From Candidatus Saganbacteria bacterium (lineage in GTDB: Bacteria > Margulisbacteria > WOR-1 > XYC2-FULL-46-14 > WPAF01), in assembly GCA_016223205.1 (NCBI GenBank), contig JACRPM010000007.1, forward strand, positions 1-64,000: 64,000 nt of DNA, written 5' to 3'. Within the stretch, counting starts at the first letter, position 1. Each line of letters opens with the position of its first letter. Below the pieces are notes generated by a model. It did not search any database, was not told where the DNA came from, and was given only the letters and a program-made list of their open reading frames with translations. This document shows positions 14,570 through 57,021 of this stretch, one piece after another. A program made the translations under genes and the position numbers.

Positions 14570-16720
14570 ATGTTCCTGAAAAAGATATCCATAAAGGGAT
14601 TCAAGACCTTTGCGGACAAGACCGACATAGAATTCGAAACCCCGGCGGGGATCGCCGCCATTGTGGGTCCCAATGGATGCGGCAAGAGCAACATCGTGGA
14701 TTCTTTCCGCTTTGCCCTGGGAGAAAGCAATGTCCGGGACCTGCGGGTGCCGACTTTGCCCGAGGTGATCTTTGCCGGGACCCAAACCCGCAAGCCCCTG
14801 TCTTTGGCCGAAGTTTACCTGGTGTTCGATAACGCTGCCGGCCGCCTGCCGGTGGGCTACAACGAAGTGATGGTCAAACGCCGCACTTTCCGCGACGGGA
14901 CCAGCGAGTTCTCGATAAACAACCAGGCCTGCCGGCTTAAGGATATCCGCGACCTTTTCCTGGATACCGGGCTTTCTTCGGAAGCGCTCTCCATCATCGG
15001 CCAAGGCCGGGTGGACGCCTTGCTTTCCAGCAAACCCGAAGAGCGGCGGGCGGTGTTCGAGGAAGTGGCCGGCATCAATAAATACAAATTCCGCAAGCTC
15101 GAGGCCGAACGCAAGCTGATCATCGCCGAACAGAACCTGCTGCGCTTGTCGGATATTCGGTCCGAAATGACCGTTCAGCTCTCGGCTCTCGAAGAACAAG
15201 CCCGGCGCGCGCGAGAATACAAGGAACTTATGGAACGCGTCCACGTGCTGGAGACCGGCATTTACAAAAAACAAATACTCTCCATGCAGGAGAAAAAGGA
15301 TAAACATCAGGCGCGGATCGGGGAATTGCAGTCGGCCACCGCCGAGGTGCAGGAAGCCGAGAGCAAGACCAGGGATGAAACCGCGCGTTTGGAGCGTGAG
15401 ATAGAGGAAACCCGGCGGCGCCTGGATGAGATCCGGGAGAAAGTGCGCGATCTGGCTGAAGCAGGCCGCTTTTTGGATTTTGAGATCAAGAACCTGGTCG
15501 GTTCACTCTCGGCGCTCAAGGAGAAAAGGCAGGCCCTGGCCGCCCGCCTAAAAAAATATGCGTTCCGGGAAAAAACCGATCTGGGGGATTTTTCCGAAAT
15601 GGCGCGGCTTTTGGGGCGGCTGGGGGAGTTGAAGACGAGTTTGCTGGCCGCCTTCAATAAACATGAGGGGCGCCGGAACACAGATGCGGATCGCATGGGA
15701 GGGGAACTTACCGAGCTGCTGAACGAAGAAGATCAGCGGCTTAAAGAAGAAGAACTAGCGCTTAAGGACGCGCTTTACGCCAAGCAAAAGCAGAAGACCG
15801 AAAGTTCGGAAATACATAAATATGAAGAGGCCCAAAATGGATTGGCCAAGCTTTTGGAGAAATTGAAGAGCGATAGAGAAAAATTGCTGAACCGGGAAGG
15901 AGAACCGGCCGCCCGCCGGGAGGACCGTGAAGCCCTGATCAAAGAGGAACTGCAGCTGGCGAAATTGGAGGGGGAGCTGGAACAGCTAATAGATCGGATC
16001 CTTTCCGAATATTCCCTTGATCTGGACGGCATCCTGAAAGTTGAAAATGAGGTCTCAAACGTCCTGCAGGGGCGCCGGGAGGTGGAGGGATTTAAGGGCC
16101 GGATGCGCGAACTGGAACCGGTGAATCTAATGGCTATTGAAGAATATGAGACCGCGCGGGAGCGGGGATCTTTTGTCGAAGTCCAGTATCAAGATATCGC
16201 GTCCACCCACGAGAACCTAAAAACCCTGGTACGGGAACTCGACGAAAAAGCCCGGGAGGATTTTATTAAGTCGCTGGCAACGGTCACCGTCAACTTTAAA
16301 GAAGTATTTGCCGGATTATTCGAGGGAGGAGAAGCCAAGATCGAATTGGAATCCGGCGGCGATCCGCTCCAGGCCGGCATCGAGATCTCGGTCTGTCCCT
16401 CGGGGCGCAAGTGGCTTCCCATCTCGCTTTTGTCGGGAGGAGAAAAATCCTTGACCGCCATCGCGGTGCTTTTTGCTTTTCTCAAGACCTCTCCCAGCCC
16501 CTTGTCCATTTTGGACGAAGTGGACGCCGCACTGGATGACGCCAACGTGGAACGCTTTACGCGCTACCTGCGGAAGTTTTGCGAGAATACGCAGATCCTG
16601 GTCATCACCCACAACAAGCGCACCATTGCCGCGGCCGATGAGATCTACGGAGTGACCATGGAGGAGGCCGGGGTCTCGAAGCTGGTTTCGATCAAATTGG
16701 AACCGGCCGCTAAAACATGA
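14570..16720 (+). CDS. smc: SMC-family ATPase, short form without a recognisable hinge
   Basis: 716 residues against about 1150-1200 for bacterial SMC. N-terminal head: FLKKISIKGFKTFADKT and Walker A GPNGCGKSN (33-41). C-terminal head: LEPVNLMAIEEYE, signature LLSGGEKSLTAIA (near 620), Walker B LSILDEVDAALDD (near 646) and VITHNKRT. All ATPase motifs are intact. Between them are only about 400 residues of coiled coil (170-330 and about 375-545) around a roughly 50-residue less regular stretch (KKYAFREKTDLGDFSEMARL). The glycine-rich hinge of about 150-200 residues is not visible. The reading frame is continuous, so this is a compact SMC rather than a frameshift. No scpA or scpB lies nearby. 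It overlaps the next gene by ATGA. Confidence 0.88.
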   Translation: MFLKKISIKGFKTFADKTDIEFETPAGIAAIVGPNGCGKSNIVDSFRFALGESNVRDLRVPTLPEVIFAGTQTRKPLSLAEVYLVFDNAAGRLPVGYNEVMVKRRTFRDGTSEFSINNQACRLKDIRDLFLDTGLSSEALSIIGQGRVDALLSSKPEERRAVFEEVAGINKYKFRKLEAERKLIIAEQNLLRLSDIRSEMTVQLSALEEQARRAREYKELMERVHVLETGIYKKQILSMQEKKDKHQARIGELQSATAEVQEAESKTRDETARLEREIEETRRRLDEIREKVRDLAEAGRFLDFEIKNLVGSLSALKEKRQALAARLKKYAFREKTDLGDFSEMARLLGRLGELKTSLLAAFNKHEGRRNTDADRMGGELTELLNEEDQRLKEEELALKDALYAKQKQKTESSEIHKYEEAQNGLAKLLEKLKSDREKLLNREGEPAARREDREALIKEELQLAKLEGELEQLIDRILSEYSLDLDGILKVENEVSNVLQGRREVEGFKGRMRELEPVNLMAIEEYETARERGSFVEVQYQDIASTHENLKTLVRELDEKAREDFIKSLATVTVNFKEVFAGLFEGGEAKIELESGGDPLQAGIEISVCPSGRKWLPISLLSGGEKSLTAIAVLFAFLKTSPSPLSILDEVDAALDDANVERFTRYLRKFCENTQILVITHNKRTIAAADEIYGVTMEEAGVSKLVSIKLEPAAKT

Positions 16721-19389
16721 AGTGGATTTCAATCTTAACGGTTATTTTTTTATTAATATTGATCTTACCAACCTTCGGGCAAGAGGGCCTTCCGCAGCCG
16801 GTTTGGGGAGCGGAAGGCAAGCTTATCAATGACGCGCCCGGCAACACTCTTCAGCAAAATCCCCGGATGGCACAGTTATCGACCGGAGATTCCATTATGG
16901 TCTTCGAGGATTCACGCAACGGGAATACCGACATTTACGCCCAGAAAGTGGATCGAGAAGGTAAATTGCTCTGGGGCAAACTTTCCCAGCCGGTTTGCAC
17001 CGCCGCTTTCGACCAACTCTCCCCCCGGGTCATAGCCGACCGGGAGGGAGGGGCGATCATTGTCTGGCAGGATGACCGCCACGGCAATTTCGACATCTTT
17101 GCGCAAAGATTGGATGCGGCGGGCGTTCCCGCCTGGCCGATCGATGGGGTGCCTATTTGTTCCCTGTCAAACGGCCAGATCTTTCCGCAAATGGTCGAGG
17201 ATGGACGAGGGGGAGCAATCATATTGTGGCAGGATTATCGCTCGGGGGCGGAAGACCTGTATGCCCAGCGGATCGATCGGGAGGGCCGGATCTTATGGCC
17301 GGTCGATGGTGTGCCGGTGTGCACCGCGCCCGGCAGCCAATGGCAGGCGCGTTTGATAAGCGACGCCGCAGGAGGCGCGATCGCGGCCTGGACCGACCGC
17401 AGGAATGGCAACGCGGACCTGTATGCCCAGCGTCTAGATCCCTTTGGCCGGGCAATATGGAAAGCCGAAGGCGTGGCGGTGGCGGCGGATGAATCCGATC
17501 AGGAACAAGCCGCCCTGGCTTCGGACGGGTTTCAGGGCGCGCTGATAGCCTGGAAAAATCCCGACAGCCTTAATCTGCAAAGGGTCGGATCGGATGGAAA
17601 CCTCATTTTCTCCGCTCCAGGTATTATGATCGCAAAGAATGCCGCCGGAGCGTCTTCTCCGCAGATCGCGGGGGATGGGGCAGGCGGGGCGCTTTTGGCC
17701 TGGAGCGATCCCAAAGCCGGCGACCCGGATCTGTATGTCCAATACCTGAACCCGGCCGGCCAGGTGCAATGGGGAGAGGAAGGACGGATACTTTTAACTT
17801 TAAGGGGAGCGCAAACCAATCCCCAAATTGCCGGCTCGGGGCCCTGGGCGATAGTTTGGGAGGATGCCAGGGACAAGAATTCATTGGGAAAACAGCTCTA
17901 CGCCCAACGCATTGGTAAGGACGGTTATTATTATTGGGCGGTGACCGGGATCCTGGTTTCGGATAAGGGCGTCGATCCCCGGGAAGCCGAGCTGTTAATG
18001 GACCAGAGCGGCGAGACCTTGATCTGTTATCAAGACCGCAAGCGGGGAAATTTTGATATTTTTGCCCAGAAGCTCGCGAGTGATGCTCGATTGGTCTGGG
18101 GCAAATGGGGGATCGTGGTGTCGGCGGTCGCAGGTTCGGTGGCCCAGCAAGAAGTTCGGGCGATAGGGGATGGAAAGGGGGGGTATCTTTTTGCTTTTGA
18201 GGATTTTCGCAACGGATTTTCCAATATCTACCTGCAAAGGATAAATGCACAGGGGAAATTGATGTGGGACCGCTTGGGGGTGCCGGCCGCCTCCGGCGCA
18301 TTTAATCAACGCAACCCGCGCCTCTCTATCGACGGGGAGGGCGGAGCGATCGTGGTGTTCGAGGATTTTCGCGATCCGGCGGGCGGTAAGATCTACGCCC
18401 AAAGGATCGATTTTGCCGGACAAACGGTCTGGGAAAACGGCGGAATAATGCTCACCCCCGGCAGCCGCGCCTCACAGCAAAGCCAGCCGCAAATCGTACC
18501 GGACGGTAAAAATGGTGCGGTGGTGGTATTTTTAGACCTGCGCAACCCCATCAACTATACGGATATCTATGGCCAGCGGCTTGATAAATTGGGCAAATTG
18601 CTCTGGTCCAGGGCCGGCAATAAGGTGAACGCCGGGAACGGCAATCAGGACGAAGTTAAATTGGCGGAAAATCTGGAAGTGGTCTGGACCGATTACCGCA
18701 ACGGGGACCGGAACTCCGACATCTACGCCCAAAAGCTCGACCTATCTGGCGCGTTACTCTGGACGGAAGACGGAGTGCCGGTCTGCGAGGCCCCCGATTC
18801 CCAAAGATCTCCCTGCATTAAAAGCCGTCATGGAGGAGGGACGATCGTGGTCTGGACAGACCGGGGCGGGGGAAGTTTCGACATTTACGCCCAACGCTTG
18901 GATGATCTCGGCCGGCCGCAGTGGATAAAAGACGGTCTGCCTGTCGAGCAATCCGCCCGCACCCAGCAGAACCCGCGCCTGGGGCTCAATCCGGCCGATC
19001 GGGCGGTTATTGTCTGGGAAGACTTTCGATTCGGCAACTGGGACATATTCGCCCAACAAGTGGATGAAAACGGACACTTAACCTGGGGTGAAGCCGGGAC
19101 GACAGTCAGTGAGGCCGAAAATACCCAATATGCCCCGGCCCTGCTGCAGCTTAAGCAAAATTCCATTATAGCTTGGGAAGATTATCGAAACGGTCAAAAA
19201 TACAGCATTTACCTGCAAATCCTGGGGCCGAGCGGGGAGAAGACCAATGAAGGACTGCTGGTTTGGGCCAGCCGTTTCGGGGCGCGCAAGCCGCAGCTGG
19301 CTTCGGCAAAAGGGAATGAATTCCTGGCAACCTGGGAAGACAACCGCGGAGGCGGTTCCGGCATCTTCGCCCAAAAATTTACTTTTTAG
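16717..19389 (+). CDS. Secreted protein of about 15 tandem beta-propeller-like repeats
   Basis: 890 residues with a signal peptide ([21 protein letters not shown]). The whole mature chain is built of about 15 units of roughly 55 residues around a core such as [18 protein letters not shown] and [12 protein letters not shown]: each has (D/N)(I/L)(Y/F)AQ(R/K)(L/I)D followed by GxxxW, a short DGVPVC-type segment, and a GGAIIVWxDxRxG strand. This resembles WD40/YVTN-like propeller blades, and fifteen blades could form two rings. A surface or periplasmic binding protein is likely; no catalytic motif is seen. It overlaps smc by ATGA, so it is co-translated with a chromosome protein although it must be exported. 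The last 11 nt overlap metK tail to tail. Confidence 0.8.
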
Positions 19390-20680: not shown

Positions 20681-21112
20681 ATGGGAGACCTCTCGGACCA
20701 CTTCAACCAGAAAGATTTCGTTTGTAAATGCAATGAATGCCGGGGCGGGGAATATAAGATCCACCTGGGATTGGTGGGGGCCCTCGAGATGATCGCCGAG
20801 CATTTCCAAAAACCGGTCAAGGTGTTGATGGGCTTTTGGTGCGAGGCCCATAACGAAAAGCTCAAAAAAGAAAGATTGAGCTATCACGTCAAAGGCAAGG
20901 CGGCCCACATTACGATCGAGGGGGTGCCCCTGGCCGAGATCTTTAAGTTCGCCGAGACCGTACCCGAACTGCAGGGCTTAGGATTTTATCCCCAGGGGAA
21001 TTTTATCCACGTGGATACCCGCCCCGCCGAAAAAAAGGACGCCTGGGTGGTGGAGGGCGAAAGGTATTCCCCGCTTTCCGCCGAAAAGCGGAAGCAGTAT
21101 GGGCTGGCTTAA
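20681..21112 (+). CDS. Peptidase M15-type (YcbK/DUF882-like) protein
   Basis: 143 residues starting MGDLSDHFNQKDFVCKC, the SxHF...EF opening of the peptidase M15A C-terminal family that cleaves or binds peptidoglycan peptides. Zinc-site motifs: SYHVKGKAAHI and FIHVDTRP. The family consensus is SxHxxGxAxD, so the second ligand is His (H) instead of Asp here; zinc binding is still possible. No signal peptide is present, so it is either cytoplasmic or exported by an unusual route. The ATG at 20681 lies 6 nt after TATAAT, which rules out the longer frame starting at 20615. Its last 14 nt overlap the xerC-tamB gene. Confidence 0.75.
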   Translation: MGDLSDHFNQKDFVCKCNECRGGEYKIHLGLVGALEMIAEHFQKPVKVLMGFWCEAHNEKLKKERLSYHVKGKAAHITIEGVPLAEIFKFAETVPELQGLGFYPQGNFIHVDTRPAEKKDAWVVEGERYSPLSAEKRKQYGLA

Positions 21113-24100
21113 AGAGCAAGCCCTGATCGATGCCTACCTTTCTTCCTTAAAATCCGAACGCAACTTCTCTCCTTACACGCTCATTAACTATCGGCTGGAC
21201 CTAGAGCAGTTGGCTAAATTCTTGGCGGAAAAAAAGCTATTGTTAGCCCGTATCGACCGGTCCGGCGCGCGCGAGTTCCTATATTACCTGGAGGGGAAAA
21301 AGTACTCCCGGAGGTCCCTGGCGCGCAAGATCTCGGCGGTGCGATCTTTTTTCCGCTGGCTGGCGAGAGAAAAAAAATTAAATGCCAATCCTTTTGAGCT
21401 GATCTCGACCCCAAAGATAGATAAGCGCCTACCCAATTTCCTTTATGAGGAAGAAATGCTTAAGATGCTCAAGGTCCCGGCGCCGGGCGGACGGGACTCT
21501 GCACTGCTGGAACTTCTCTACGGCGCCGGCATCCGGGTCTCCGAAGCCGTCAAACTTAATCACTCCGATCTTGATTTAAGCGAAGGGGAAGTACGTATCT
21601 TGGGTAAGGGCAGCAAAGAACGCATCGCCCTGATCGGTTCGCATGCTATAAGCGCCCTTAGAAAATATCTTTCTGCTCGCCGCCGGGGCGATTCGCGCGC
21701 GGTGTTCCAAAATCGGCGGGGGGGGAGATTAACGGAGAGGAGCGTGGAGCGTCTGATAAGGTTCTACGCCCGCAAGGCCGGCCTGGACAAGACCGTAACC
21801 CCGCATACCCTGCGCCATACCTTTGCCACCCACTTGCTTGGCAAAGGGGCGGATCTGCGGACCGTGCAGGAACTTTTGGGGCACAGTTCGCTCTCCACCA
21901 CCCAGGTCTATACCCATATCACCAAAGAGCGCTTAAAGTCCGTTTACGACCTGGCCCATCCGCGCGCCAAAAAAATACTGATATTCTTTCTTCTTCTGGG
22001 TTCATTGGTCTCTTCCGCTTTTTCTTTCCCAAATCCCGCCGCGCCGCTTTACGATAACGTCAAAGCCCAGGCGGCGGCCTCCTTCAGCGAACTGTTTTCC
22101 GGTCCGGTCAGCATTAAATCCGCCGGCGGCCGGATCGTCGGCCGGATACTCTTAAACGAGGTTGAGATCGGGGATGACCTCCACGCCCAGCAGATCGTGA
22201 TCAACTATAACGTGATCAAGTACCTGGCAAATCGCGGCGACATCGTTCCCAGCATTTCCTCGATCAGGATCAAAGGCGGCGAAATCAAAGTAACCCGGAA
22301 CCGCAAAGGGGAGATCTCGGCCATCCGCATCCTTAAGCCGCCCAAGCCCGGCGGAGGGGGAGTGCCGTTCAAAGCCAAATTGATATTGGAGAACTGCCGG
22401 CTGGACTATGTGGATGAAGCGGGTTTGCCTTATCGCACGCCGGCCAAGCCCTTTCGATCGCGGATCGAACGGCTAAAAGGAACGGTAGATCTTTCGCGGG
22501 CGCCGCAGATAGGGATCAATGTGGAAGGGAGGGAGAAGGAAGGAGGAGAAGGGATCTATGTTAAAGGGTCCGCGAACCTGGAAAAAGGATCGTATGATAT
22601 CACGCTCCTGGCCAAGAAATTACCGCTAAAATCATGGGGAAACTACTTGGTCCCGTATTATGACTTCCAATCGGGATCGGCGGAACTTTCTTTGATCCTG
22701 AACCCGAAAGAATTGCGCGTGACCGCGAGCGGGATCGCGGAGGATAAACCTTTTGCGGCCGACGGCCGCATCCTTATGGGGGCCCGCATGGTGCTGGCCG
22801 GCTCGGTCAGGATGAGAGCGTTTGAGGGCGCGATCACCACCAACGGGGAGCTCGTCTTTGGCCGGGGGATCCCTACCTTTTCTGCACAGGCCAAGTTTGA
22901 CCGGATCGATCTGGCTAAAGCAGCGGGCGGGGTGGGAGTGGAAGGGAAGGCCACGGGAACCGCAGACCTGGCCGGGAATTTCAATGAATTTTCGGGCCGA
23001 CTCCGGACCCAACTGGCGGGCGCCCGGATATTAGGCCAAATAGTCGATGAAGCGAGCGGGTCATTTGAATATAGGGATGGAGAGATCGAATTAAAAGACC
23101 TGAAGCTGGCCTCCCAACAGGCAGAATTTTTGGCCTCCGGAAAATTGGATCGTGCCCGCCGGGCGCAGCTTTTTGCCCGGGCGCGGGGGATCAAACTCGA
23201 AGGTCGCAGTCCCCTGGGGGAACTTTCCTGCCGGATCAGATCGTTTACCGGGGACCTGGCCTTTACTCCGGATGAAAAATTCTTTGCTTCACCGCTTAAG
23301 TTGCTCACCGCCCATGGGACGGCGGAGATCGGGGAAACGATCCTTGGCGAACAGTCCCTGGATGAGGGGATCGGGGCGATCACGCTCGAGCGGGGACAGA
23401 TAAAGTTCATCGACACTTACGTCCATAAGAATGAATCGCGGCTTTACCTTTTGGGCGAGACCGGGATCGAGGAGACCAATCTGCGCTGGTATGGGAAAGA
23501 TCTGGATCTTAGGGACCTGAAGGGGCTAAATTATCTTCTGCCGGACGCCGTGAAAAACCCCACCGGCCGGGTGAACTTGGACTTGCAGATCTTCGGCCGG
23601 GGTGGAGAAATAATGGATTGGGGAGCTCGAGGCAGATTGGATTTTGCCCAGTCGACTTGGGGAGGGATCCCCGTCCAGCAGATCTCCGCCGAGGCCCTCT
23701 GGCAGGACCGCCGCATCGTCTCTGCCCAGGGAGGGATCATTTTCAACAACCAGACCGTCCCGCCTTTGACGGGACAGGGAGCGCTCAACTTTTCGGCGGC
23801 CGGAACGTTGGACGATCCCCTGCTCAAGGTTGACTTTTACATTGACCAGCCCCGGTATGGCGGCCTGCGGTTCGAGCGGGCGGAGGGAACGGTGGAATTG
23901 ATCAACCGGCGTTTGCGCTTCCTCAAACCCCTGCGGATGTCCGATAAGGATAATCAATATGAATTTTTGGGCACCGTGGACTTTGGGCCTTCCCAGAAAC
24001 TGGACTTGGTGCTCAAGGTGGAGCGGGCCTCGGTCGCGTATGCGGCGGAGCTGGCGACGAACTTGATCTCTTTCGGGACCCGTTGGTTCAGCCCTCCCCC

Positions 24101-26240
24101 CCAGGGGTATATACGGATCAAATCCACTAAGATCGACCTGCCGCGCTTGGCCGGTTCAGACAAGTTCTTTGCCGAATTCGGCCGGATCTCCGCGGAGGTG
24201 CAGGCGCTTCGCCGGAAAGAGCTGCCGCCGGCCATAGAGAAGATGAGCGGGAAATTAAAAGCCGGGCTTAATATCTTTGGCACCCTGCAAGCTCCCCAGG
24301 TTTCCGGTCAGCTTACGGTACGGGAAGGCGCTTACGGGCGCTATAAGTTCGATTCACTGGAACTCTCCTGTGAGGCGGACACTAAAGAGATCGAGGTCAA
24401 ACGATTAGAGATAAAAAAGCAGGACGGCCGGCTGGTGGGGGCGGGGGAGATCGGTTTTAATAAAGGCGAGATGGATTTTCGCGCGGTGGCTCGCGGACTC
24501 CCCATTGACTTTTTCCGGATCTGGCTGAATAAGGATTTTTCGGGCACTTTTGACGGGGACCTGCGTTTGGCCGGCACCACCCTTTCTCCCCGCGGCTGGC
24601 TGACCTTAAAGACCGGACGGGTAAAATTGGCGGGCGTGGACTTCGAAAAAGTTTCCGGCAATTTTACACTGGTCAAGGATTTGCTTTATATCAAGGATCT
24701 GGGCCTGGGCAGCGGCTCGCACCTCAATGGATTTCTCAAGGCCAACGGCCAGGCCAATCTCACGGCTTCGCTCGAGGGCGGGGCTTTGGGGCTGGTGAAT
24801 CTTTTTACCGATGAGGTCCGCTGGGAGAGCGGCCAGGCCCAGGGAAATCTATCTTATGTTTCCGACGGCCAAAAGACCCGGCTCCAAGGAGGATTGCTGG
24901 TCAAGAACGCGGTCTTCTATGTTAAGGCGCTGGATTCGTACTTTAGAGAAGGCGGATTGAATCTGCGGACCAGCGGCAACGTGGTTTGGATCGACGAGGC
25001 CTCCGGATATTGGCAGGGCTCCCGCACCAAAAATCGGCAAAACCAAATTTCTCTGGCGGGGGTGCTGGACCTCAACCGGCAAACCGCCAATTTTATCCTG
25101 GCGGATGCCCCCTACACCGTGGTCCTGCCGGGGATCTATTCGGGAAATCTGGAGCTCAAGGATTTTTCCCTATCTGGCCCGCTCGATAACTTAAAGCTAA
25201 AAGGTAAAGTCGACTTTTCCGAAGGAGTGATCTTTTTACCGGAAAAACTCCCATCCGGCGGCTCGGAGCAGGCAGGGCGGCCGCTGGACCTGGATATCCT
25301 GGTTAACCTTAACCGGAATGTTTATCTCACCGCCGGCAATGTGGCCACACTGGATTTTTCTAATATTCTAATGAACCTGGAGATGAGCGGAACCGATATC
25401 GCGCTCTCCGGCACCTTAAACGAGCCCCGGCTTTTAGGCAAGCTTTTCTTTAAGCGGGGCAACGTCAATATCTTTAGCCGGGACTTTTCACTGCTGACGG
25501 CCGAACGCCAAAAACAATATTATCGGGGCGACCTGGATAAAATATCCGACAACTACGCCCAATTCATCGGCGACGGCGTTATCCCTTATTTAAACCTGAC
25601 GGCGTCCGTCAAGACCGACACCCTGCGTGCGGACGGGACCCGGAAGCCGGTGATAGTGATCTCCCGCCTGCGGGGCGAGCCCTTTTCTATCGAATCGGTC
25701 TTTGAGGCCTATGAATTGGATCCGCAAAGCGGCGAATACGTGCGCGGCGCCTACAATGAGGAATCCATCAAGGTAATGCTGCTGCCGGATTTCGTAAAAT
25801 CACTGACCGGGGTAGAAAAAGGGAGGGCGGCGGATGGGAACGTGGTGGTGGCCGATTACCTTAACAGCCGCCTGCAGACCGTAGTTTTTCGCGGGGTAGA
25901 ACGACAATTGGAAACCGCCCTGGGGCTCGAAAGCTTAATGCTCGATTATAACTTCGGCTCCGATATCCAACGTACCATGGGGTTGAGCGGGAACGGCGCC
26001 CGCTCCAACCTGGGGGTGGGTTTCATTAAAGGGTTCTTTGACAAATTATATATAGATGTGAGATACTCTCAAAGCGTGGACGTGGCGGGTTCTGCCACTG
26101 CGCTGCAGACGGTAAACTATCAGTTGACATACAAGCTGACGCCGATCTGGTCGGTCGCGTATTATCGGGAACCGCTCTCGCTTTACGACCTGCAGAGCGG
26201 GCCCAGCAAGACCTCCCTAAACGGCACGCTGCATTTTTAA
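21099..26240 (+). CDS. XerC tyrosine recombinase fused in frame to a TamB-like translocation protein
   Basis: 1713 residues in one frame. Residues 1-292 are a full XerC/XerD: N-terminal SAM-like domain, then GAGIRVSEAV (catalytic Arg), GKGSKER (Lys), HTLRHTFATHLL (His and Arg), LGHSSLSTTQVYTH (His and Tyr), ending DLAHPRAKK, where XerC normally stops. Immediately after comes ILIFFLLLGSLVSSAFS, a signal-anchor, then about 1400 residues of beta-rich AsmA/TamB-type repeats with the C-terminal DUF490-like end (DYNFGSDIQRT ... TSLNGTLHF). TamB guides lipids or barrel proteins to the outer membrane; bamA follows 12 nt later. Predicted topology: XerC in the cytoplasm, TamB in the periplasm. No in-frame Met occurs in the TamB part before residue 560, so separate ATG initiation is excluded. 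AFS|F could be a signal peptidase site. Confidence 0.85.
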   Translation: MGWLKEQALIDAYLSSLKSERNFSPYTLINYRLDLEQLAKFLAEKKLLLARIDRSGAREFLYYLEGKKYSRRSLARKISAVRSFFRWLAREKKLNANPFELISTPKIDKRLPNFLYEEEMLKMLKVPAPGGRDSALLELLYGAGIRVSEAVKLNHSDLDLSEGEVRILGKGSKERIALIGSHAISALRKYLSARRRGDSRAVFQNRRGGRLTERSVERLIRFYARKAGLDKTVTPHTLRHTFATHLLGKGADLRTVQELLGHSSLSTTQVYTHITKERLKSVYDLAHPRAKKILIFFLLLGSLVSSAFSFPNPAAPLYDNVKAQAAASFSELFSGPVSIKSAGGRIVGRILLNEVEIGDDLHAQQIVINYNVIKYLANRGDIVPSISSIRIKGGEIKVTRNRKGEISAIRILKPPKPGGGGVPFKAKLILENCRLDYVDEAGLPYRTPAKPFRSRIERLKGTVDLSRAPQIGINVEGREKEGGEGIYVKGSANLEKGSYDITLLAKKLPLKSWGNYLVPYYDFQSGSAELSLILNPKELRVTASGIAEDKPFAADGRILMGARMVLAGSVRMRAFEGAITTNGELVFGRGIPTFSAQAKFDRIDLAKAAGGVGVEGKATGTADLAGNFNEFSGRLRTQLAGARILGQIVDEASGSFEYRDGEIELKDLKLASQQAEFLASGKLDRARRAQLFARARGIKLEGRSPLGELSCRIRSFTGDLAFTPDEKFFASPLKLLTAHGTAEIGETILGEQSLDEGIGAITLERGQIKFIDTYVHKNESRLYLLGETGIEETNLRWYGKDLDLRDLKGLNYLLPDAVKNPTGRVNLDLQIFGRGGEIMDWGARGRLDFAQSTWGGIPVQQISAEALWQDRRIVSAQGGIIFNNQTVPPLTGQGALNFSAAGTLDDPLLKVDFYIDQPRYGGLRFERAEGTVELINRRLRFLKPLRMSDKDNQYEFLGTVDFGPSQKLDLVLKVERASVAYAAELATNLISFGTRWFSPPPQGYIRIKSTKIDLPRLAGSDKFFAEFGRISAEVQALRRKELPPAIEKMSGKLKAGLNIFGTLQAPQVSGQLTVREGAYGRYKFDSLELSCEADTKEIEVKRLEIKKQDGRLVGAGEIGFNKGEMDFRAVARGLPIDFFRIWLNKDFSGTFDGDLRLAGTTLSPRGWLTLKTGRVKLAGVDFEKVSGNFTLVKDLLYIKDLGLGSGSHLNGFLKANGQANLTASLEGGALGLVNLFTDEVRWESGQAQGNLSYVSDGQKTRLQGGLLVKNAVFYVKALDSYFREGGLNLRTSGNVVWIDEASGYWQGSRTKNRQNQISLAGVLDLNRQTANFILADAPYTVVLPGIYSGNLELKDFSLSGPLDNLKLKGKVDFSEGVIFLPEKLPSGGSEQAGRPLDLDILVNLNRNVYLTAGNVATLDFSNILMNLEMSGTDIALSGTLNEPRLLGKLFFKRGNVNIFSRDFSLLTAERQKQYYRGDLDKISDNYAQFIGDGVIPYLNLTASVKTDTLRADGTRKPVIVISRLRGEPFSIESVFEAYELDPQSGEYVRGAYNEESIKVMLLPDFVKSLTGVEKGRAADGNVVVADYLNSRLQTVVFRGVERQLETALGLESLMLDYNFGSDIQRTMGLSGNGARSNLGVGFIKGFFDKLYIDVRYSQSVDVAGSATALQTVNYQLTYKLTPIWSVAYYREPLSLYDLQSGPSKTSLNGTLHF
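21969..21981 (+). other. A7 tract with immediate out-of-frame TGA at the XerC/TamB junction
   Basis: Seven A residues (21969-21975) follow the GCC codon of HPRA. In the present frame the reading continues AAA AAA ATA CTG ATA into TamB. Loss of one A, in DNA or by slippage, gives AAA AAA TAC TGA and stops XerC at residue 293. Such homopolymers favour transcriptional slippage, so both XerC alone and the fusion could be made; a one-base assembly error is the plain alternative. Confidence 0.6.
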
Positions 26241-26252
26241 ACGGGGGAATAA

Positions 26253-27926
26253 GTGAAAAAAGTCTGGTGTTTGCTGTTTTTATTGGTCCTCTGCGTTTCG
26301 GCCCAGGCCGTCGAGCAGGATCTTACAAAATTTCCCGTCCGGATCGCGTCTTTTGCCGTGCGCGGCAACCACACTATTCCCCAAAGAGAAATATTAGACG
26401 CGGTCTTCAGTAAAGTGGGCGAGGCGCTCAACGAAGAGCGGATCAGGAACGACCTTAAGGCCATTTACGCCCTGGGCTATTTTGAGGATGTTACGGTCGA
26501 CTTTGAAGTGGTGGAGGGAGGCACCAGGGTGATCTACCAAGTGGTGGAAAATCCGGTGCTGACCAGCCTCACCATAGAGGGCGCCAATGCTGTGCCGTCT
26601 TCCGAGATCTCCTCCTTGATCAAGCTTAAGGTAGGGGGACTTTTGAATTACAAAACTTTGCGCGACGACCTGGCCGCCATTAACGACAATTACCGCAAAC
26701 AGGGTTACACCTTGGCGCGAGTGGTGGACGTTGCGGTTAGCCCGGACAAGACCCAGGTGGATTTTATGGTGGTGGAAGGGATCGTCGAAGAAGTATCGCT
26801 TGAGGGCAATGCCACCACCCTGGATTATGTGATCCGAAGAGAGATGAAGACCCGGGTGGGCTCGGTTTTTAACGAAGAAGTCCTGGCCAAAGACCTGCGG
26901 CGGGTCTTTAACCTGGGATTCTTTTCGGAGATCAATCCGGTCTTTGAGCCGGGCTCAACCACCGACCGGGTCCGCATCATCTTAAAGATCAAGGAGACCC
27001 GCACCAATACCATCAATTTCGGCGGCGGCTGGGGCGAACGCGAGGGCTGGTTCGGATTTCTGGACCTTTCCATCAACAATTTAATGGGCACGGCCCAGGG
27101 GTTGATGCTGCGCGGCCAGACCGGCACCCAGCTGACCACCTATCAATTCAAATACACCAATCCCTGGTTTTGGCCGGAAAAGCTGGGAGATAAAACTTCA
27201 TTGGCTGTGCGATTATGGAACACCCAAGGGACCGATATTTATTTAACCCAGCAGGACCAAATAAACACCGGTTGGGACGCTACCATTGGCAAGTCGCTGC
27301 GGGACGAGTACAGCGCTTCATATACATTGGGCACGGAAGCGGTTTCTCCCCGGGGAGGGGCCTCCTTCGAGGCCTATAACTCCGCTTTTATCGGGACGAC
27401 CCTGGCTTATGACACGCGCGATTTCTGGATGAATCCCACCAAAGGCGTCTATCATACCATTTCACTTAGACAGGGCTGGAAATTCACGACCATCACCACC
27501 GGTTATTCCAAAGTTGGTTTTGATTTCAACATTTATCGACCCGTCGGCCCGCAGCAGGTCTTGGCTTCACATCTGGGCATGGGTTTGGGGATGGGGGATG
27601 TGCCGTTAGGCGAGCTTTACTGGGCGGGCGGGCCCAATACCGTGCGGGGATATGGTTTTGACGAGATCCGCCGCGGCACCCGCAAACTGCTGTTTAATTT
27701 GGAATATCGCTATACCTTCAACGAGACCTTTCAGGGGGTGGTTTTCTTCGACTGGGGCGATGCCTGGAACGGTGGCGAGCCCGATATCAAGAATTTCCTC
27801 ACCGGTTGGGGGCCGGGGCTACGCTTGAACACGCCTTTAGGTCCCATCCGCCTGGATTACGGGGTAGGGGCCGGTAAGAATGTCGGCGAAGGCATTCTGC
27901 ATTTCTCAATTGGACAAGCTTTTTAA
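26253..27926 (+). CDS. bamA: Outer-membrane protein assembly factor BamA
   Basis: 557 residues with a GTG start preceded by GGGGGA. Signal peptide VKKVWCLLFLLVLCVSAQA. Three POTRA domains (about residues 28-100, 101-180, 181-255: IASFAVRGNHTIP, TSLTIEGANAVPSSEISSLI, VEEVSLEGNATTLDYVIR), then a 16-strand Omp85 barrel with the lid-lock motif VRGYGFDEIRRG and a terminal aromatic residue (FSIGQAF). Three POTRAs resemble the cyanobacterial-type Omp85 rather than the five of E. coli. It inserts beta-barrels into the outer membrane. It sits 12 nt after the TamB-like part of the fusion gene, so the pair likely works as a TAM/BAM-like module. Its end overlaps rsmG by 47 nt. Confidence 0.94.
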   Translation: MKKVWCLLFLLVLCVSAQAVEQDLTKFPVRIASFAVRGNHTIPQREILDAVFSKVGEALNEERIRNDLKAIYALGYFEDVTVDFEVVEGGTRVIYQVVENPVLTSLTIEGANAVPSSEISSLIKLKVGGLLNYKTLRDDLAAINDNYRKQGYTLARVVDVAVSPDKTQVDFMVVEGIVEEVSLEGNATTLDYVIRREMKTRVGSVFNEEVLAKDLRRVFNLGFFSEINPVFEPGSTTDRVRIILKIKETRTNTINFGGGWGEREGWFGFLDLSINNLMGTAQGLMLRGQTGTQLTTYQFKYTNPWFWPEKLGDKTSLAVRLWNTQGTDIYLTQQDQINTGWDATIGKSLRDEYSASYTLGTEAVSPRGGASFEAYNSAFIGTTLAYDTRDFWMNPTKGVYHTISLRQGWKFTTITTGYSKVGFDFNIYRPVGPQQVLASHLGMGLGMGDVPLGELYWAGGPNTVRGYGFDEIRRGTRKLLFNLEYRYTFNETFQGVVFFDWGDAWNGGEPDIKNFLTGWGPGLRLNTPLGPIRLDYGVGAGKNVGEGILHFSIGQAF

Positions 27927-54832: not shown

Positions 54833-57021
54833 GTCGGCGGCGCAGCCGGCGGGAGAGCGGTGAACCTTCGCCCCTTAAACAAGACCTCGCCGGGATCCTC
54901 CTCATTGCCCTGGCGCTTTTCGTTCTGGTCTCCAATTTTTCTTCCTCCACCGGACTTTTGGGCCTCTACATCTTTAAGCTGGCTTTCCGCGCCATCTTTG
55001 GGGTGGGGATATATGTTCTGCCTTTCTTTATCGCGCTTTATGGATTAATAATGCTCTTTCGCCATGAGGTCAAGGAACTGGCCACCCGGCTTTCCGGCCT
55101 TTTCATTTTATTTTTGACTTTCATCACCGCGATGCAATTTTATTCTCCCCTTTACTTTAGATCCCAGGCCAAATACGAGGTCATCCAGGGGGCGGGGGGC
55201 TTTATCGGTTTTACCTTGCGTTTGGGATTGGAGCGTTCGATCGGCTTTATCGGCGCTTACATCCTGCTTTCGGCTTTTACTCTGGTAGCTTTGCTTTTGG
55301 TGGCCAACATCACGGTGCTGGACATCCTTAATTTTATAAGATCGTTCTTCAGCTTCGCCCCCCGGCCCAAGAAAGAAGAGAAAAAAAAGCCGATCCCGAT
55401 CAACCCTCCCGTGGAAGACCACCAGTCCATCGCCGCGCAAATGCCGCTCATCAAGGAAATGCCGAAAGAAGTAGTGAGCTTCCCTCTTCCAGAGGTGATG
55501 GTAGAAACTCCCAGAATGGAAGAGACCACCGTGGTTACAACTGAAAGTCCGGAAAAACACAAAAAGTCCTACGGGAAGTATAAATTGCCGCCGCTGAATC
55601 TTTTGGACGATCCCACCGCCAAGGAAAAAGAAAAACAAGATAAGCTTCGCGAGACCACGGAGCTGCGCAAGAAACTGCTGGAAGAAGCGCTCGAGAACTT
55701 TGGGGTGGGCGCCCGGGTGGTTTCGATCAATCAGGGACCGGCGGTCACCCGCTACGAACTCCAGCCCGAGCCGGGGGTAAAGGTCTCCCGCATTGCCAAC
55801 CTGGCGGATGACATCGCTTTGAACCTGGCGGCGCAGGGGGTGCGCATCGAAGCTCCGGTGCCCGGCAAATCGGTGGTGGGCATCGAGGTGCCCAATACCG
55901 TAGTGACTCCAGTCCGCTTAAAAGAGATCGTCAAGACCAACGAATTCCAAAACAGTGCTTCCCGCTTGTTCGTGGGCTTGGGCAAGGACCTCTCGGGGTC
56001 CCCGATCTTCGGCGATCTCACCCGCATGCCGCACCTTTTGATCGCGGGGACCACCGGCTCCGGCAAATCGGTCTGCATCAACTCCCTGATCATTTCGATC
56101 TTACTGCGCGCCCGGCCGGATGAGGTTAAATTCATCATGATCGACCCTAAGATGGTGGAGCTATCAAGTTACAACGATATCCCCCATCTTTTGGCGCCGG
56201 TGGTGACCGAGGCCCGCCGCGCCGCCTTGACCTTAAAATCGTGGGTAATAAAAGAGATGGAGCGCCGCTACCATCTGTTCCATGACGCGGGGGCCAAGAA
56301 CCTGGAGGCCTATAACCGGGGAAGAGGAGAAGGCGAGAAACTCCCCCTGATCGTGGTGATAGTGGATGAGCTGGCGGACATGATGATGGTGGCCGCGGCG
56401 GAAGTGGAAACCACCATTTGCCGGCTGGCGCAGATGGCGCGGGCTACCGGCATTCACCTGGTGATCGCGACCCAAAGGCCTAGTGTGGATGTCATCACCG
56501 GCCTGATCAAAGCCAATATACCCAGCCGCATCGCCTTTGCGGTGGCCACCCAGATCGATTCGCGAGTGATCCTCGATATGTCCGGGGCCGAAAAGCTTTT
56601 GGGAAGAGGGGACATGCTCTACAATCCGGTGGGGGCCATGAAACCGGTGCGCCTGCAGGGCTCCTTTGTCACCGATGCCGAGGCCGAACGCGTCATCAAG
56701 TTCATCAAAGCACAAGCCGAACCCGAGTACCTGGATGAGATCGCCGCGCTTAAACTGCCGGAAGGCGAGAGCCAATCTATGGTCGAGACCGACGCTTCGG
56801 GCCGGGACGTGCTCTTTATGGATGCGGTGAAATTGATCATCGAATCGGGTGTGGCTTCGACTTCTTACCTACAGCGGAGGATGCGCATCGGCTATAACCG
56901 CGCCGCGCGGTTGATGGACGAGATCGAGGCTGCGGGAGTGGTAAGCAAACCCGAAGGGGAGAACAAGCCCCGCAAGATCCTGGCTACTCCCGACAATCTG
57001 GCTAATTTTGGTGTTAAATAA
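54811..57021 (+). CDS. ftsK: DNA translocase FtsK/SpoIIIE
   Basis: 736 residues, the short SpoIIIE-like type. GTG start inside secF. Four or five N-terminal membrane helices (about 25-175), a charged linker (180-285), the alpha/beta motor with Walker A LIAGTTGSGKSVCINSLIIS (near residue 413) and Walker B PLIVVIVDELADMMMVAAAE, and a C-terminal gamma winged helix (RRMRIGYNRAARLMDEIEAA) that reads KOPS/SRS. It pumps DNA through the division septum and activates XerCD at dif. Notable here because a XerC fused to a membrane protein is encoded 30 kb away. Confidence 0.96.
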   Translation: MGKREEVSRRRSRRESGEPSPLKQDLAGILLIALALFVLVSNFSSSTGLLGLYIFKLAFRAIFGVGIYVLPFFIALYGLIMLFRHEVKELATRLSGLFILFLTFITAMQFYSPLYFRSQAKYEVIQGAGGFIGFTLRLGLERSIGFIGAYILLSAFTLVALLLVANITVLDILNFIRSFFSFAPRPKKEEKKKPIPINPPVEDHQSIAAQMPLIKEMPKEVVSFPLPEVMVETPRMEETTVVTTESPEKHKKSYGKYKLPPLNLLDDPTAKEKEKQDKLRETTELRKKLLEEALENFGVGARVVSINQGPAVTRYELQPEPGVKVSRIANLADDIALNLAAQGVRIEAPVPGKSVVGIEVPNTVVTPVRLKEIVKTNEFQNSASRLFVGLGKDLSGSPIFGDLTRMPHLLIAGTTGSGKSVCINSLIISILLRARPDEVKFIMIDPKMVELSSYNDIPHLLAPVVTEARRAALTLKSWVIKEMERRYHLFHDAGAKNLEAYNRGRGEGEKLPLIVVIVDELADMMMVAAAEVETTICRLAQMARATGIHLVIATQRPSVDVITGLIKANIPSRIAFAVATQIDSRVILDMSGAEKLLGRGDMLYNPVGAMKPVRLQGSFVTDAEAERVIKFIKAQAEPEYLDEIAALKLPEGESQSMVETDASGRDVLFMDAVKLIIESGVASTSYLQRRMRIGYNRAARLMDEIEAAGVVSKPEGENKPRKILATPDNLANFGVK

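Follow-up and report, generated by a model that had tools for sequence, protein, structure and literature searches.

The window, by which we mean the whole 64,000-nucleotide stretch of DNA that was analysed, comes from G000, a MAG of 16 contigs that is 92% complete and belongs to the Candidatus Margulisiibacteriota (WOR-1/Saganbacteria) group. Between 21099 and 26240 on the plus strand lies a single open frame of 1713 codons with one terminal stop, which runs from a complete XerC through a signal-type helix into a full TamB (Table 1). The initial annotation had described XerC and TamB in one 1713-residue frame with bamA 12 nt downstream. Translation and Pfam matches confirm the frame, and the GTG at 26253 that starts bamA does lie 12 nt past the fusion stop. 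GC3 is 0.66–0.68 throughout and alike in the XerC and TamB halves, so both look like native coding DNA. Elsewhere in the window, 16717–19389 encodes an 890-aa secreted-looking protein with repeats of the DxRNGNxDIYAQ type.

Table 1. Features of the fused frame and its downstream neighbour, in window coordinates.
Feature	Position	Strand	Basis and remarks
XerC tyrosine recombinase domain	21099..21968	+	Residues 1-290, ending ...VYDLAHPRA; Pfam, identity to relatives, catalytic residues
A7 run at the joint	21969..21975	+	KK codons homologous to the KK of TamB 'MKK' in G001, G002 and G003
Signal-peptide/anchor segment ILIFFLLLGSLVSSAFS	21975..22025	+	Top hydropathy; aligns with the N-terminal signal segments of relatives' TamB
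TamB/AsmA-like periplasmic part	22026..26240	+	PF04357; full-length alignment to relatives' TamB
bamA (BamA/TamA-type Omp85)	26253..27926	+	ORF list; named by sequence inspection and in the initial annotation

The XerC half has both domains expected of the family. Phage_int_SAM_1 (PF02899) matches residues 10–92 of the fusion with 73.6 bits and Phage_integrase (PF00589) residues 114–277 with 150 bits (E 7e-44), each above its curated cut-off. All six catalytic residues are present, as had been annotated, at R146, K170/K173, H236, R239, H262 and Y271. The XerC part finishes at the HPRA ending on residue 290, and K291–K292 already open the TamB signal-like segment. Identity to the XerC proteins of the same order is 60–69%. 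In the alignments the fused XerC has diverged no faster than the relatives have among themselves, and both halves are conserved as they are in relatives, so this is a recent fusion or one that is tolerated. No tyrosine recombinase other than the fused Xer, matched at 21438–21929, was found in G000. There is likewise one Xer match in G002 (99% complete), a member of the same family, while G001 and most relatives carry two; this suggests that part of the G000/G002 family may run a single-Xer system. An FtsK gamma domain is encoded at 56803–56985, in a 763-codon open frame of the same window.

The TamB half aligns over its full length with the TamB proteins of relatives (1388–1585 aa). By hydropathy and alignment it consists of an N-terminal signal/anchor, which at residues 293–311 has the highest hydropathy anywhere in the protein, and a long AsmA-like beta region; the TamB domain (PF04357) follows at residues 1323–1688 (E 1e-19, 71.3 bits against a cut-off of 22.4). 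It is the only TamB found in G000. Apart from codons inside xerC, there is no ATG, GTG or TTG ahead of the signal segment from which it could start. The first in-frame ATG past the joint is codon 560 (22776). A TTG at 22005 and a GTG at 22197 come earlier; their positions, within the signal segment or past it, mean that a start there would cut it off. The earlier statement that TamB lacks an ATG start of its own thus stands, no canonical start keeping the signal segment; the statement of 267 residues without a Met holds for ATG but passes over the TTG and GTG. The signal segment ends in a small-x-small motif, read by eye from the TamB alignment, in G000 (AFS|F) as in several relatives (SYA|F in G003, SFA|L in G008, AKA|V in G004, GFS|L in G005), so signal peptidase may part XerC from TamB.

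We compared the locus with two genomes of the same family and six more of the same order. In all seven of the same-order genomes inspected (G001–G006 and G008), xerC has its own stop, and in six of these (all except G002) the next gene is tamB, separate from it. The proteins end AKIL*, AKSRLRHPS*, AKR*, AKMVK*, HPRA* and AKQ* in six relatives and AKII* in G002, where a small membrane-protein-like ORF stands between the two genes (L032, about 1905–2240). The spacing is therefore not conserved even inside the family. In G007 xerC and tamB are on different contigs, and in class-level relatives they are far apart or on different contigs, adjacency being limited to the order. Among the Xer matches listed for 74 genomes of the phylum, there is no other fused frame, only the G000 frame exceeds about 430 aa, and the joint is not shared by a second genome, as it would be in a conserved XerC-TamB fusion family. 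Two sets of candidates fell away. Xer frames of 511–521 aa in G009, G013 and G023 read 309–323 aa in a second listing, and an 1899-codon fused frame in G008 was seen on inspection to be separate genes. Among the papers searched, none names XerC, TamB and a fusion together.

The relatives also indicate what stood at the joint. In several same-order genomes a TATAAT box lies just ahead of the tamB ATG. In G001 the xerC stop (AKIL*) overlaps TATAAT, which is followed by ATGAAAAAAATT, encoding MKKIAILLFLL; in G003 TATAAT lies 7 nt ahead of ATGAAAAAATTG, encoding MKKLLFF. In G000 the GCC that ends XerC is followed directly by AAAAAAATACTGATATTC. K291–K292 correspond in the alignment to the two lysines of the relatives' MKK, so what is missing in G000 is the xerC stop, the TATAAT box and the TamB Met only, a segment of about 20–40 bp by comparison with relatives. 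In G001 this stop/box/ATG segment is flanked by a 6-bp microhomology, AAAAAT, with the copies 31 bp apart. No promoter-like site was found on the plus strand at the G000 joint. TATAAT-like boxes 4–18 nt before start codons are about fivefold enriched in G000 (0.118 against a background of 0.022) and two- to fourfold in its relatives, the sampled pieces of G000, G001 and G005 standing at about four- to fivefold, so near-start promoters are normal in the group and probably give leaderless or short-leader RNAs.

We consider it likely that this is a real, lineage-specific fusion which arose by an in-frame deletion and is translated as one chain that signal peptidase probably cleaves. The ancestor would have had a xerC ending in ...HPRAK(xx)* and a tamB within about 10–70 bp, as same-order relatives do, with a tamB ATG at the head of an 'MKK...' signal peptide and, as in several relatives, a TATAAT box just before it. 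A short deletion between A-rich stretches would then have taken the xerC stop, the box and the tamB ATG, the frame being kept by chance. Such a deletion would be the simplest event, in a reconstruction made from relatives whose XerC are only about 65–70% identical. If the sequence is correct, translation as one chain follows from it. XerC would remain cytoplasmic, the old TamB signal segment would become an internal N-in/C-out membrane helix, and TamB would be periplasmic; this topology, with a K-rich cytosolic side, a helix and AFS|F, had been proposed as allowed, and we judge it plausible. Signal peptidase would probably cut at the old AFS|F site to release mature TamB and leave XerC with a hydrophobic tail of about 19 residues; without that cut XerC would stay tethered to the membrane. 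XerC probably still works, since C-terminal additions to XerC and XerD are tolerated in E. coli. A hydrophobic tail of about 20 residues, only a few residues past the last XerC helix, could nevertheless disturb its interactions.

The fusion is seen in a single MAG and the same-order relatives keep the genes separate, and it might be thought that the real genome does too, the MAG consensus having dropped 20–40 bp at the joint or the assembly having followed a minority variant. The A-rich repeats that flank the missing stretch in G001 would suit such a loss. A repeat of 6–9 bp is, however, too short to collapse in ordinary short-read assembly, and the joint keeps the frame and is precise to the codon. 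The quality of the assembly also speaks against an artefact. In a sample of about 449 kb of G000, comparison with relatives' ORFs yielded 121 strong matches covering 120 kb, free of internal frameshifts and stops, and no other credible fusion was seen in that matched coding sequence. We had looked for signs of an indel-rich, low-quality assembly; paralogues accounted for the apparent frame changes, and most stop matches came from antisense ORFs or fell at alignment ends, while other fusion candidates in G000 came from a likely antisense ORF and from low-identity or paralogous matches. A one-base homopolymer error would restore no tamB start. When the A7 run was set to A5, A6, A8 or A9, the tamB frame gained no ATG, GTG or TTG before the signal segment, so homopolymer error does not explain the fusion. 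With A6 XerC would end in KKY* and with A9 in KKKY*, tamB being startless in both. The initial annotation had held that A6 or A8 in relatives with separate genes would tell against the fusion. That was wrong in detail, as tamB is startless at either length and relatives differ by about 20–40 bp. On balance an assembly artefact is unlikely. Alternatively, the one frame could yield two products, TamB starting internally and free XerC arising from slippage at A7, which would place TAC TGA straight after AKK. One A fewer would give a XerC ending AKKY*, resembling the relatives' ends, and TamB could start at in-frame GTG or TTG codons 36–90 codons upstream in xerC (GTG stands 36, 76 and 90 codons before the joint) or at another non-AUG codon, such as the ATA at 21975 or the CTG at 21978. 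But A7 is common in G000, where 449 kb contain 93 A7/T7 runs, and in a large share of genomes slippage-prone runs are visibly selected against once they reach nine A or T (PMC1088944). Without a promoter-like box at the joint, and with no conservation in its support, we regard this scheme as very unlikely.

A further reading accepts one chain and gives it a purpose. XerC would be held at the membrane near the septum, so that dimer resolution is linked to outer-membrane assembly, much as the initial annotation proposed in connecting chromosome resolution with envelope assembly. The fused Xer being the only one in G000, the presence of FtsK gamma in the genome, the allowed topology and the intactness of both halves are in keeping with it. 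Yet the genes are separate in same-order relatives and distant at the class level, their adjacency is limited to the order, and no second fused Xer frame appears among the matches listed for the 74 phylum genomes. Nothing about the joint is conserved, so the functional link is unsupported, and a neutral deletion accounts for the anatomy; we hold selected coupling to be highly improbable. That the sole Xer is simply tethered to the inner membrane for good by the TamB-derived helix, with both proteins made equally from one gene, is quite doubtful too. If it were so, dimer resolution would be membrane-bound and coupled in expression to envelope assembly. The joint is probably a neutral, lineage-specific gene fusion, and it looks like a one-genome event and not a conserved new machine.

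If real, the locus is a natural example of a cytosolic recombinase and a secreted envelope protein in one chain, which signal peptidase probably cuts apart again. It would mean that a deletion between neighbours can produce a viable polyprotein-like gene, and it would let one ask in a natural setting if a Xer recombinase can act from the membrane. If not real, it is a caution on fusions known from a single MAG.

Set beside an ordinary XerC, the fusion has the full SAM and catalytic domains, the R-K-H-R-H-Y set and the HPRAKK end; it differs in having no stop there and running on into a membrane helix and TamB, and in being the only tyrosine recombinase found in its genome where many relatives have two Xer genes. 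With TamB it shares the full-length alignment, the C-terminal TamB domain and bamA downstream, but the start Met is replaced by XerC and the TATAAT box of several relatives is absent. The nearest engineered counterparts are XerC and XerD with FtsK gamma on the C-terminus, which are active recombinases in E. coli (PMC5052618), so that extending a Xer at its C-terminus does not in itself abolish activity. Both they and the fusion carry an extra domain on the Xer C-terminus, and the engineered proteins act in vivo. They are laboratory constructs, however, with a soluble domain behind a linker (PMC5052618), whereas in the natural fusion a membrane helix follows almost at once.
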